Made by a program: the position numbers and the translations under genes
NCBI RefSeq assembly: GCF_028198165.1
Contig: NZ_CP116339.1
Span: 744,001 to 808,000 of the forward strand
Length of the DNA: 64,000 nucleotides
Reading direction: 5' to 3'
Origin: Pseudoxanthomonas sp. JBR18
GTDB lineage: Bacteria > Pseudomonadota > Gammaproteobacteria > Xanthomonadales > Xanthomonadaceae
Shown: one piece after another, positions 22,610 to 25,814 of the stretch
Numbering within the stretch: the stretch's first letter is position 1
How the letters are laid out: the number at the start of each line of letters is the position of its first letter
Notes under the pieces: model-generated
Seen by the model: only the letters and a program-made list of their open reading frames with translations
Database searches by the model: none
Told to the model about the DNA's origin: nothing

Positions 22610-24100
22610 ATGTCGTCTGCCCAATCCCTCAGCCATCTGCTCCGCGACGCGCTGCGCACGCATGCGCAGGCCGGTCTTGCCGCCTTGATCGGTCCGTTCG
22701 GCGAGGTGAGCTACGCGCAGCTGGCGCGTCACGTCGATGCAGCCGCCGCCGCCGCGCACGCCTGGGGCCTGCGGCGTGGCGAGCTGGTCGGCGTGATCGC
22801 GCGCAAGACCCCCGAGAGTGTGGCGACCTTTTTCGGGCTGATGCAGGCCGGCGGCTGCGCCGGCTTCATGGAGCCAGGCCTGGCGATGGATGCCATCGCC
22901 GAGCGCATGCAGTCGGTAGGCATGCAGCGGCTGGTCGTGGAGCACGCCGACGACGGTGCCCAACTGCAAAAAGCGATCCCAGGTCTGCAGGTCATCGCAC
23001 TGGAGGCAATGGCCAGCGAAGGCGCGTGGATCGACGACGGCCTGGCACCGGGCGATGCGGCACAGATCCTGTTCACCAGCGGCAGCACGGGCAAGTCCAA
23101 AGGCGTGCTGCAGCCGCACCGCGGGCTATTGGCCAACGCCCGTGGCGTGATCGCGCACACCGGCATCACGCGCAACGACCGCTTGCTGCACGTCATGCCG
23201 GTCCATCATACCAATGGCGTCAACAACCAGTTGATCGCCCCCCTGCTGTGCGGCGCGCAGGTGGTCCTGATCGAGCGCTTCCGTGCCGAAGACTGCGTGC
23301 AGCAGCTGCGCGATTACGCGCCGACCTACCTCACCGGCGTGCCGACCATGTACGCGCGCATGCTCCCGCTCCTGCGCGAGGGCGAGCGCTTCCCGTCGCT
23401 GCGCTTCCTGCGCTGCGGCTCGGCCCCGATCACATCGGCACTGCAGGAGCAGATCGAGCAGGCCTTCGGCGTTGAACTGCTGGTCTCCTACGGCCTGTCC
23501 GAAGCCACCTGCACCTCGACCATGAATCCGCCGGGCGCGCGCCGTATCGGCAGCATCGGCACCGTGCTCGAAGGCCAGGTCGTCAGGCTTTTCAAGCCAG
23601 GCACCGAGGAAGTCGTCACCGAAGGCGAAGGCGAGATCCGCATTGGCGGCGATGCGCTGATGCTGGGTTACATCGGCACCGAGGCCGCCCAACCGATCGA
23701 ACACGGCTGGCTGCTCACCGGCGACCTGGGCCGCTTCGACGCCGAGGGCTATCTGTCGATCACCGGCCGCATCAAGGACGTGATCATCCGCGGCGGCGAG
23801 AACCTCTCGCCCGCCCTGATCGAGGGCGAGCTCAGTCGCCACCCTGCGGTGGCCGAATGCTGCGTGGTCGGCATGCCGCACCATGACCTGGGCGAGGTGC
23901 CGGTGGCCTTCGTGGTCCTGGACCCCAGCGCCCCTGCGGTGACAAGCGAGACGCTGCAGGACCTGATCCGGGAGAAGCTCGCGCGGGCCTACGTGCCGGC
24001 TGAAGTGAAGTTCCTGACGACCTTGCCGGTCAATGGCGTAGGCAAGGTGGATCGCAAGGCGCTGCGGCGAGGGTTTGAGGCTGCGCCGCAGGCGGCTTAG
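22610..24100 (+). CDS. Class I adenylate-forming acyl-CoA ligase (AMP-dependent)
   Basis: The enzyme activates a carboxylic acid with ATP and then transfers it to CoA. The 496-residue protein has the P-loop FTSGSTGKSKG (155-165), YGLSEAT near 300, TGDLGRFDAEGYLSITGR near 366, and the C-terminal NGVGKVDRKAL with the adenylation Lys. A ribosome site CAGGAG precedes the ATG. It is the last gene of the right arm, 109 bases after the beta subunit. The acid substrate is unknown; the side-chain pocket gives no obvious hint of aromatic or long-chain preference. Confidence 0.92.
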   Translation: MSSAQSLSHLLRDALRTHAQAGLAALIGPFGEVSYAQLARHVDAAAAAAHAWGLRRGELVGVIARKTPESVATFFGLMQAGGCAGFMEPGLAMDAIAERMQSVGMQRLVVEHADDGAQLQKAIPGLQVIALEAMASEGAWIDDGLAPGDAAQILFTSGSTGKSKGVLQPHRGLLANARGVIAHTGITRNDRLLHVMPVHHTNGVNNQLIAPLLCGAQVVLIERFRAEDCVQQLRDYAPTYLTGVPTMYARMLPLLREGERFPSLRFLRCGSAPITSALQEQIEQAFGVELLVSYGLSEATCTSTMNPPGARRIGSIGTVLEGQVVRLFKPGTEEVVTEGEGEIRIGGDALMLGYIGTEAAQPIEHGWLLTGDLGRFDAEGYLSITGRIKDVIIRGGENLSPALIEGELSRHPAVAECCVVGMPHHDLGEVPVAFVVLDPSAPAVTSETLQDLIREKLARAYVPAEVKFLTTLPVNGVGKVDRKALRRGFEAAPQAA

Positions 24101-24161
24101 CTTTTACTTGCCGCACGCGTGGCGCAGCACGCTGATCTTCTTTGAGAGCAAGAGCTTTCGT

Positions 24162-24211
24162 GCGGCTTCGCCGCCCGCCCTACTTTCTTCGCTCGTGCAA
24201 AGAAGAGTAGG
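24162..24211. repeat. Two adjacent hairpins downstream of the acyl-CoA ligase
   Basis: GCGGC-TTC-GCCGC (24162-24174) is followed by a longer imperfect stem (24177-24211) pairing GCCCTACTTTCTT with AAGAAGAGTAGGC. The second resembles the final helix of the two larger repeats further right. It may serve as transcript end for the rightward operon, although there is no clear U tract. Confidence 0.5.
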
Positions 24212-24382
24212 CAAAGAGGTGCGTTTCAACAGACGCATGTCTGGTCAACACGCCCCGGGCGGCACGCCTGCGCTACGCGCCGGTCCGCTACGTGACGAGG
24301 GATTTTTGGAAGCGGGAGCAGAAGCCAAATGCCCAAGAAGCAAAGTCCCTAGATGACCACACATTCGTCTGTTGTAAGGCGC

Positions 24383-24400
24383 TTCCCGCTTTCGCGGGAA
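24383..24400. repeat. Short REP-like palindrome
   Basis: TTCCCGC-TTTC-GCGGGAA (24383-24400), followed by TGACG, is the reverse complement of the CGTCA-TTCCCGCGAAAGCGGGAA type of dispersed repeat seen in many proteobacteria. Confidence 0.55.
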
Positions 24401-24450
24401 TGACGAGTTGACGCAGTTGTAAGCGCTGTTGCTGTTGTTGCTTCCAGCTT

Positions 24451-24658
24451 TACCTGTCTGAGCCGTAAAGCGAGCCGAGCATCGCAGAAGAAGACGGCCG
24501 AAGAGTCGCCCTGTCTGAGCGAAGCGAGTTTGGGCGACGTGCCGTCTTCTTCGAGAAGCGCAGGGAACCGCCGCATCGCGGCGGCGAGTGTCCGGCGAGA
24601 AGCGGTTTTGCTTCCTTTTTCCAAGACAAAAGGAAGTCGCGCCCGAAGGGCGTGAAAG
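24451..24658. repeat. Structured repeat, copy A
   Basis: About 208 bases foldable into four helices: 24487-24498 with 24541-24552 (12 bp, perfect), 24505-24511 with 24532-24538, 24568-24574 with 24578-24584, and 24611-24619 with 24628-24636. The first two are nested around a loop, TGTCTGAGCGAAGCGAG, that is identical in copy B. Copy B keeps every helix but with different base pairs, so pairing rather than sequence is conserved. Product and strand of transcription are unknown. Confidence 0.75.
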
Positions 24659-24759
24659 CTCCTGCTCCTGCTGTAGCTCCTGCTCCTGCTGTAGCTCCTG
24701 CTCCTGCTGTAGCTCCTGCTCCTGCTGTAGCTCCTGCTCCTGCTGTAGCTCCTGCCGTA
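24658..24759. repeat. 18-bp tandem repeat array
   Basis: Five exact copies of GCTCCTGCTCCTGCTGTA followed by a partial sixth copy (24748-24759, GCTCCTGCCGTA). It joins the two structured repeat copies. Because 18 is a multiple of three, every frame stays open; the minus strand reads Glu-Leu-Gln-Gln-Glu-Gln repeatedly in one frame and Ser-Arg/Ser-Tyr in another. I see no ribosome site or conserved protein around it. The array is likely to vary in copy number between strains. Confidence 0.9.
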
Positions 24760-24769
24760 CCCAGGCCTC

Positions 24770-25013
24770 ACCTATCTGAGCCGTAAAGCGAGCCGAGCAC
24801 CGGAATAAAGCAGGGGCGAAGAGGCGCCCTGTCTGAGCGAAGCGAGTTTGGGCGCCGTCCCTAAAAAGGCATAAATGCCCTGCTTTGCGAGGAGCGCAGG
24901 GAACCGATGCACAGCATCGGCGAGTGTTTTCAATCCCCTTTTTGGGACCGGCGAGTAGCGGTTTTGCCTTCTTTTGCCGCGACAAAAGAAGGTCGCGCCC
25001 GTAGGCGCGAAAG
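24770..25013. repeat. Structured repeat, copy B
   Basis: About 244 bases sharing with copy A the opening ACCT(A/G)TCTGAGCCGTAA, the loop TGTCTGAGCGAAGCGAG and the closing CGCGCCCG. Helices: 24807-24815 with 24878-24886, 24823-24829 with 24850-24856, 24904-24910 with 24914-24920, and 24967-24976 with 24983-24992. Extra bases inside the first helix (24857-24877) and after the third account for the greater length. The helices differ from copy A by paired changes on both sides. Confidence 0.75.
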
Positions 25014-25088
25014 CCTTTTCTCGAGCCGCGCTGCAAGCGCGAGTGCTTTAACTCAACGTATCGACGTCACAGACAAAAGCAGAGAAAC

Positions 25089-25814
25089 CTACTTCCCCCA
25101 CCCCGGCATCTGATCGGCGTCCAACCCGCCGGTCTCGAACTCCGCCGTCTGCGTCCCCCCGGCCTTCACCGGGAACTCGATCTTCAGGGTCTTGGCGTGC
25201 GCGGCCAGCTTCCACAGGCCCTTGTAGTCGGTGATGAACATCGCGATGGCCTCATCGGTATCCGGCCGCCAGGCATCCATGGCCTTGGGCTTGCCATCGT
25301 CGACGCTCACTTTCACCTTGCAGCCTTTCAGGCACGGGAAATCACCGGCCTTGAGCACCAGATAGGCGCTCTGCTTCCACTCGGGATGGTCGCGGAAGAC
25401 CAGCTGTACGTCCTGCTTCTTCCCACTGCCGTCGGTGTCCAGCGGCTCGGTGCTCATGATCGAAGCCGAGACCTGCGGACCGCCGTTGATCATTACCTGG
25501 TTGTAGTTCCACAGATTGGCCAGACGGCGCTCTTCGCGCGCGGCCTCGGCCTTGGTCTTGGCCTCCTGGTAGTGCGCCTGGATCTTCTTGGCCGCTTCCG
25601 AGTCCGGGTACTGATCGGTCAGCGCGCTGCCGTGCACGCGTGCCATCTCCCAGTTCTGCGCGGTGTAGGCCTGGTCGAACTGCTCGGCCAGCTTGTCGGC
25701 CGCCTGCTTGTCCTTGGCCGCCTGGGCCGCCGCCTGCTCGCGCATCTGCGCTTCGTGATCGGTACAGCCCAGCAGGGCGACGGCGCACAGGGAGGACAGC
25801 AGCAGACGTTTCAT
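25089..25814 (-). CDS. Lipoprotein of unknown function
   Basis: I do not recognise the family. The 241-residue protein begins MKRLLLSSLCAVALLGCTDHE, a lipoprotein signal with Cys17. Residues about 20-45 and 85-100 are Ala/Lys/Glu-rich and probably helical or coiled coil, covering a stretch spaced like a tetratricopeptide repeat (AQNWEMARVHGSALTDQYPDS). The C-terminal half (about 105-241) is a beta-rich globular part with two close Cys (FPCLKGCKVKV) that may pair. It lies alone between the repeat region and the aminopeptidase. Confidence 0.8.
   Translation of the reverse strand: MKRLLLSSLCAVALLGCTDHEAQMREQAAAQAAKDKQAADKLAEQFDQAYTAQNWEMARVHGSALTDQYPDSEAAKKIQAHYQEAKTKAEAAREERRLANLWNYNQVMINGGPQVSASIMSTEPLDTDGSGKKQDVQLVFRDHPEWKQSAYLVLKAGDFPCLKGCKVKVSVDDGKPKAMDAWRPDTDEAIAMFITDYKGLWKLAAHAKTLKIEFPVKAGGTQTAEFETGGLDADQMPGWGK

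Follow-up and report, generated by a model that had tools for sequence, protein, structure and literature searches.

A dispersed, seven-helix structured element in intergenic DNA of Pseudoxanthomonas and other Gammaproteobacteria

Here we describe a bacterial intergenic repeat whose copies differ in their letters and agree in their fold. The window, a 64,000-nucleotide stretch of the Pseudoxanthomonas sp. JBR18 chromosome (NZ_CP116339.1, positions 744,001 to 808,000, numbered here from its first letter), contains two complete copies, A and B, of a structured element that we call type 1 and that is an uncatalogued, undescribed family by Rfam and the literature searched. On balance, we think that type 1 is probably a structure-recognised interspersed element of Gammaproteobacteria, similar in kind to REP/BIME sequences and with a new architecture. 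An earlier sequence-only reading of this DNA had described two intergenic copies with four helices, and all helices and coordinates that it named are present in the sequence. The covariation of these helices, as judged from aligned sequences, is proven by the family and is not provable from copies A and B alone.

Two copies in the window and the fold of the family

Copy A is a complete element of the U subtype (GCAUCG...GAGAAGC) on the plus strand at 24454..24659 (model R1, 233.5 bits, E 8.5e-63), and is also matched by the core model R2 at 24462-24599. Copy B, complete and of the C subtype (GCACCG...GAGGAGC), lies on the same strand at 24772..25014 (R1, 199.1 bits, E 2.4e-53; E-values of both models are rough) and holds two insertions, 24857-24875 and 24927-24947. 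From 5' to 3', type 1 consists of a hexamer tract (TTGCTG-like, drifting, with a period of six) followed by helices P1, P2, P3, P4, P5 and P6-P7. Its limits, set by us, are where similarity fades, near CTGTCTGAGCC... and ...GAAAGC.

In copy A the closing helix P1 (24462..24596, plus strand, as are all helices given here) pairs GCCG at 24462-24465 with CGGC at 24593-24596; it was found by RNAalifold and by covariation of its arms, which in the family covary across more than 100 nt. The central helix P2 (24479..24559, pairing 24479-24483 with 24555-24559; RNAalifold and covariation) has a GCA/GA internal loop on either side, and these two loops stand in two-fold symmetry. Its pairs join element positions 26-27 and 29-30 to 102-103 and 105-106, and its U-A/C-G pair covaries. 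P3 (24487-24498/24541-24552), read in the sequence, is highly variable with two-sided changes. P4 (24505-24511/24532-24538) and P5 (24568-24574/24578-24584) were read in the sequence and the family alignment, P4 being capped at 24512-24528 by the conserved loop UGAGCGNAGCGAG with a GNA triloop. The 3' module (24611..24655) comprises P6 (24611-24619/24628-24636) and the last hairpin P7 (24637-24644/24648-24655, thus within 24637-24655). Copy B has P3 at 24807-24815/24878-24886, P4 at 24823-24829/24850-24856, P5 at 24904-24910/24914-24920 and P6 at 24967-24976/24983-24992. The four helices seen earlier, which are P3 to P6 in our numbering, are therefore all real, the first two being nested on one arm, whereas P1, P2 and P7 had been missed.

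A TTGCTG-type hexamer tract, read in the sequence, stands 5' of copy A at 24425..24445 (plus strand), and such tracts were found 5' of many of the type-1 copies read. At 24657..24755 an 18-nt unit, three hexamers each, is repeated 5.5 times (plus strand; Tandem Repeats Finder, 100% matches), and we take this perfect array to be the 5' tract of copy B in expanded form. No Rfam match at the gathering score was obtained in the window or in 15 type-1 loci, distant members included, and 24050-25100 gave sub-threshold matches only. A literature search with longer stretches of element letters found no paper, and the papers listed for short stretches looked unrelated, in agreement with the earlier statement that no named family matches.

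RNAalifold on 25 aligned copies of the JBR18 genome (alignment A1, 25 of the 30 placed copies, leaving out L033 and four truncated, interrupted or divergent ones) gave 58 pairs, 23 of them changed on both sides, with 18 broken pair cells out of 1450. Mean identity among 13 own-genome copies is only 84%, so the structure has been kept while the letters drift. In alignment A3 (69 matches at E 1e-30 or better from 45 chosen loci, 64 distinct rows), whose rows overlap the training set and are fitted to the model, 97.9% of pairs are standard and 529 cells are changed on both sides, against 152.6 in shuffled alignments and 29-61 in slid structures. Alignment A5 holds 37 model-found and model-aligned matches, which come from 28 loci of other families within the order and class and were not part of training. 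It is 94.4% paired; 453 of its cells are changed on both sides, where shuffling gives 133.9 and sliding 71-117, and its covariation score is 0.737 against 0.166. With its rows outside training, A5 is the stronger covariation test of the two alignments. The proposal that the helices are kept by compensatory change is borne out in both, and covariation stands above the background of the shuffled as well as the slid controls.

P1 was also tested without any model. Out of 36 minority arms, 14 form a stack of at least 6 Watson-Crick pairs with the distant partner arm of the same copy, against an average of 3.3 and a maximum of 9 in 500 shuffles; the mean longest stack is 4.94 against 3.92, with a stack of 3 or less in 6 of the 36 arms (loci L148-L184 are included in the counts of P1 arms, apices and subtype pairs). 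The conserved parts of type 1 are its junctions and caps and the free parts its stems, and loops and junctions are conserved across bacterial families. The loop that had been called invariant is conserved in most members and has variable positions, TGT[CT]TGAGCG[ACT]AGCGAG. Of the pattern-found apices, 172 of 178 carry CGNAGC and 2 carry GGA, and P5 loops have GNA in 89 of 181 and TNC in one. Hairpins of the form GCGNAGC are very stable in DNA.

The strand that folds can be read from the balance of GU and AC cells. Among paired columns of A3, GU outnumbers AC by 139 to 17 cells (28 versus 8 columns, p 0.0012), with a weaker bias when only rare types are counted (47 versus 17), and A5 has 54 GU versus 14 AC cells (17 versus 5 columns, p 0.017). 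Because the two are expected to be equal without strand selection, the excess of GU points to folding of the plus strand. This comparison shows selection on the plus strand to adopt, single-stranded, the fold P1-P7, and RNA or single-stranded DNA would both fit. Folding copy A on its own says less about the strand than the GU/AC bias does: against dinucleotide shuffles its plus strand reaches z -3.80 as RNA (1 of 200 shuffles as good) and z -4.45 as DNA, and its minus strand also beats the shuffles, with z -3.46 and z -3.97. Copy B reaches z -2.30 (4 of 200 as good), and its single-sequence fold misses some family helices. Family covariation and strand bias together uphold the original description as a structured RNA or DNA element.

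Some distant members have additional parts. L326, L327, L337, L045, L057 and L264, members from other families, carry around the core a long outer stem that by eye measures about 20-25 bp or more and whose letters are unrelated from copy to copy. L138, L140 and L143 carry a hairpin with a GGA loop, placed at the P4 apex, close to it or just upstream. Tandem short matches at G823:C23 170541-170743 span model positions 14-104 only and may represent a shortened version of the element.

Range, placement and exchange of copies

Homologues were collected across the 4.6-Mb JBR18 chromosome, giving 30 placed copies with blastn (copy B as query) and 33 matches with R1. In the same-genus set, R1 matches occur in 12 of 41 genomes. 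True copies are found in 7 of 25 Pseudoxanthomonas genomes (G000, which is JBR18, G004, G007, G009, G010, G015 and G017), with 6 to 52 matches each, and outside Pseudoxanthomonas G032 and G027 have matches. Weak matches in G011, G012 and G024 (1, 1 and 4) were rejected as members, five of the six being read as a sister repeat that shares the 3' module. Type 1 is patchy in the genus, even between close relatives.

A named pattern scan returned at least 117 stretches, of which 80 were scored with R1. All 50 from Lysobacterales (Pseudoxanthomonas, Luteimonas, Lysobacter, Xanthomonas, Stenotrophomonas and others) scored E 0.01 or better, while the remaining 30, whose taxa are different or unclassified, included 1 true member, in the assembly of an unclassified proteobacterium, and another stretch at E 0.13; hence the pattern alone is unspecific and the model specific. 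R1 run on 55 loci (three earlier ones included) gave 89 matches in 53, and no match in L093 (Pseudomonas) and L094 (Roseateles). The core model R2 matched 46 of 250 genomes and 14 of 77 genera in the order sample, with 49 of 369 genomes and 41 of 272 genera in the Gammaproteobacteria sample. For 18 genomes of the latter sample the best match was aligned, and the remaining genomes rest on score; per-genome copy numbers in these wide searches count no more than 8 to 12 scored candidates. In the phylum sample 5 of 299 genomes matched, all five Gammaproteobacteria. The suggestion of a dispersed Xanthomonadaceae repeat was thus right about dispersal and too narrow about range, since the model matches many families of Gammaproteobacteria. 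With one Luteimonas copy as query, plasmids gave no match and phages one chance 31-base match (E 0.7). In viruses one exact pattern found 7 stretches with 0 members by R1, and a second pattern found 0.

The copies lie mostly in non-divergent gaps, as single copies or opposed pairs, at sites that are shared yet empty in some species. In a gap survey of matches in 72 of 103 loci, with genes called by a simple GC-frame rule and some loci orthologous and so partly non-independent, the 58 classed element gaps comprised 31 co-directional, 26 convergent and 1 divergent, against 135, 36 and 52 among 223 other gaps. Divergent gaps are avoided (p 4e-5) and convergent gaps enriched. In JBR18 alone, the 26 of 30 copies with both neighbours called are in 14 convergent, 12 co-directional and 0 divergent gaps. 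Of 28 two-copy gaps 27 are tail-to-tail, and convergent copy pairs are U/C heterotypic in 41 of 59. Head-to-head pairs are seen in other genomes, Stenotrophomonas-like ones among them. In co-directional gaps the single copies favour neither orientation, with 7 sense and 10 antisense, which leaves a sense-strand 3' UTR element unsupported. In L195 (5776-14400, JBR18 about 550.8-559.4 kb), genes of an AT-rich island are separated by four type-1 copies that lie on the same strand and resemble one another, an arrangement like a cassette array; by eye, we take the island genes to be IS3-type transposases and genes for DUF4062-like and VWA-like proteins.

The same syntenic sites carry pairs or single copies in JBR18, G004, G017 and G010. 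A shared site also lies between genes that we read as pcaG and pcaB, where the gap is 38 nt in G006 (empty) and 759 nt with a tail-to-tail pair in JBR18; the pair is present in 5 genomes (JBR18 and four others), and the empty site of G006 is too diverged for reading a target duplication. Beside the lipoprotein gene of the window, an element occurs at the orthologous site in G009, and none in the stretches of G004, G017, G007, G010 and G013. At four tail-to-tail sites the side order of the subtypes is the same in JBR18 and G004 and opposite in G017 (4 of 4). The cores are swapped at site S1364, with tails and spacer unchanged, and at site S2000 the subtypes are swapped while an insertion stays on the right, so exchange between copies is needed and not simple inversion only. 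With subtypes kept apart, same-site copies of G004 and G017 have a mean identity of 0.956 (12 pairs), against 0.961 for same-subtype copies from different sites (72 pairs) and within-genome means of 0.959 and 0.958. That same-site copies are no more alike than different-site copies fits homogenisation or recent spread. Together, these sequence comparisons show copies that appear to have been reshuffled and homogenised within genomes.

The sister repeat

Head-to-head with copy A, on the minus strand at 24144..24385 (identified by similarity, with the right end set by eye), stands an eroded copy of a second repeat family, the sister repeat or type 2; the part 24144-24312 of this copy resembles many dispersed copies. 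Type 2 is also head-to-head with type 1 at the orthologous site L314, and the loci that were read in G009, G007 and G010 show it adjoining type 1 in this way. Intact type-2 copies were seen in L301-L312 and L314-L316. In the copies read, the repeat ends with a module resembling the 3' module P6-P7 of type 1. GGA-loop hairpins, one or two per locus and mostly of the form CA-N-GGA-TG, are present in 19 of 19 type-2 loci (14 from G009, G007 and G010, 5 from G011, G012 and G024), and the type-2 copy of the window has none. In 49 named loci, CA-N-GGA-UG hairpins number 13 in 55.9 kb near type 1 versus 6 in 303.7 kb far from it, and for eight control trinucleotides taken together the counts are 10 near and 49 far. 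The CsrA consensus is RUACARGGAUGU. The type-2 hairpin form resembles CsrA/RsmA sites, and these are candidate sites only.

Nature of the element

REP/BIME sequences are dispersed, extragenic and foldable, and occur singly or as head-to-head or tail-to-tail dimers including heterodimers (PMC2613905, PMC3733652). REPs are palindromes of 20-40 bp with a GTAG or CGTC end. Type 1 shares with them (GTAG and CGTC REPs, and SMAG of Stenotrophomonas) the dispersal, the extragenic position, the foldability and the single or opposed arrangement, down to its tail-to-tail pairs. It is not a single 20-40 bp palindrome; it is about 205 nt long, has seven helices, with 58 pairs in the family fold and conserved junctions between them, and shows a strand bias. 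Some copies contain GTAG and CGTC internally, within limits that we set ourselves. The Y1 transposase PF01797 is present in 33 of 41 genomes and by eye does not track type-1 copy number; G017 has 13 type-1 matches and no Y1. A Y1/RAYT transposase was therefore rejected as mobiliser, no correlation with copy number being seen.

Other known systems share single traits with type 1. Integron attC sites conserve structure, not stem sequence, on one folding strand, as type 1 appears to do; their core consists of R'/R'' GTTRRRY...RYYYAAC with extrahelical bases, and no GTTRRRY/RYYYAAC core was noticed by eye in the alignment. ERIC, BOX and similar repeats are modular, intergenic and predicted to fold when transcribed; their architecture seems to differ from that of type 1, with Rfam as the means of comparison. 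The likeness to CsrA/RsmA sponges (CsrB, RsmX/Y/Z) lies in type 2, with its GGA loops mostly closed by CA/UG, whereas type 1 is without a conserved GGA hairpin; instead of several GGA loops, its apices have the 2 in 178 given above.

A descent from a known insertion sequence, a MITE with fixed terminal repeats or an integron attC would suit dispersed, opposed copies and the four same-strand copies between AT-rich island genes at about 550-560 kb. It is the least probable explanation we considered: the outer stems of the copies read differ, unlike fixed terminal inverted repeats, stem and flank letters vary by copy, no ORF belonging to type 1 was seen, and neither a tracking Y1 transposase nor an attC core speaks for it. 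In the tests run, the element did not turn out to be a remnant of an insertion sequence or protein gene. Very unlikely too is that template switching (quasi-palindrome correction) matched the arms without any selection on folding. Local stems are long and perfect, and the hybrid copy S1428R_G000, with mismatched P3/P4 arms, shows recombination acting on arms; such switching is opposed by the GU-over-AC asymmetry, by P1 arms that covary over more than 100 nt, and by loops and junctions kept across families.

Two further readings have the element act as RNA. That the copies are genes for trans-acting small RNAs, for example titrating CsrA/RsmA, with each copy its own transcription unit, seems improbable to us: the structure is RNA-like and strand-specific, and CA-N-GGA-UG hairpins, similar to the CsrA consensus, occur in the sister repeats and a few type-1 relatives and cluster near type 1, but no promoter-like site was found within 24050-25150, upstream conservation beyond the hexamers was not seen, type 1 in the window has no such hairpin, and the type-2 remnant there has lost its own. 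Somewhat less unlikely, and still doubtful, is a host-serving RNA in which an intercistronic or 3' fold blocks 3'-5' decay or guides processing, with each copy kept in place. Diverged copies that are intact, the enrichment between convergent genes (26 of 58 versus 36 of 223), shared syntenic sites such as pcaG-pcaB, and terminator-like matches in the window region (9 versus 1.5 expected, many made by hairpins inside the copies) are what it would lead one to expect. It does not account for single copies being antisense as often as sense, for the patchiness among close relatives, or for the antisense copy coming first in the head-to-head pairs of other genera.

Copies without a sense bias, avoiding divergent gaps and patchy among genomes, speak for an interspersed element that is tolerated away from promoters, and the intactness of diverged copies favours continuing selection or exchange. 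The copies are more intact than plain dead mobile DNA should be, and this tilts the balance towards host use. Our preferred reading, the REP/BIME-like interspersed element, would work as follows. A host or mobile factor may read the folded strand, as RNA or as single-stranded DNA at replication, through the conserved junctions; as junctions and caps are conserved and stems free, it must read shape. This recognition would let the element spread, be retained, or both, as proposed for REP/BIME, and recombination between copies would homogenise type 1. A non-autonomous mobile element, as the sequence-only reading had suggested, is thus part of the favoured interpretation, and no mobiliser or binding protein was found for it, Y1 transposases not tracking type 1. 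More tentatively, and with less confidence than in the preferred reading itself, type 1 could be one member of a new interspersed class in Gammaproteobacteria, with a seven-helix strand that is recognised, heterodimers, CsrA/RsmA-like sister repeats, a modular superfamily sharing the 3' module under different structured heads, and a trans-acting factor of its own.

The structured element, often in many copies, was matched in 49 of the 369 gammaproteobacterial genomes sampled, and it is missing from Rfam 15. The sister repeat hints at a possible link to CsrA/RsmA in Lysobacterales. With dozens of natural variants of one fold in a single genome, the binding partner can be sought directly, and type 1 allows a test of whether repeats between genes are selfish, structural or regulatory.
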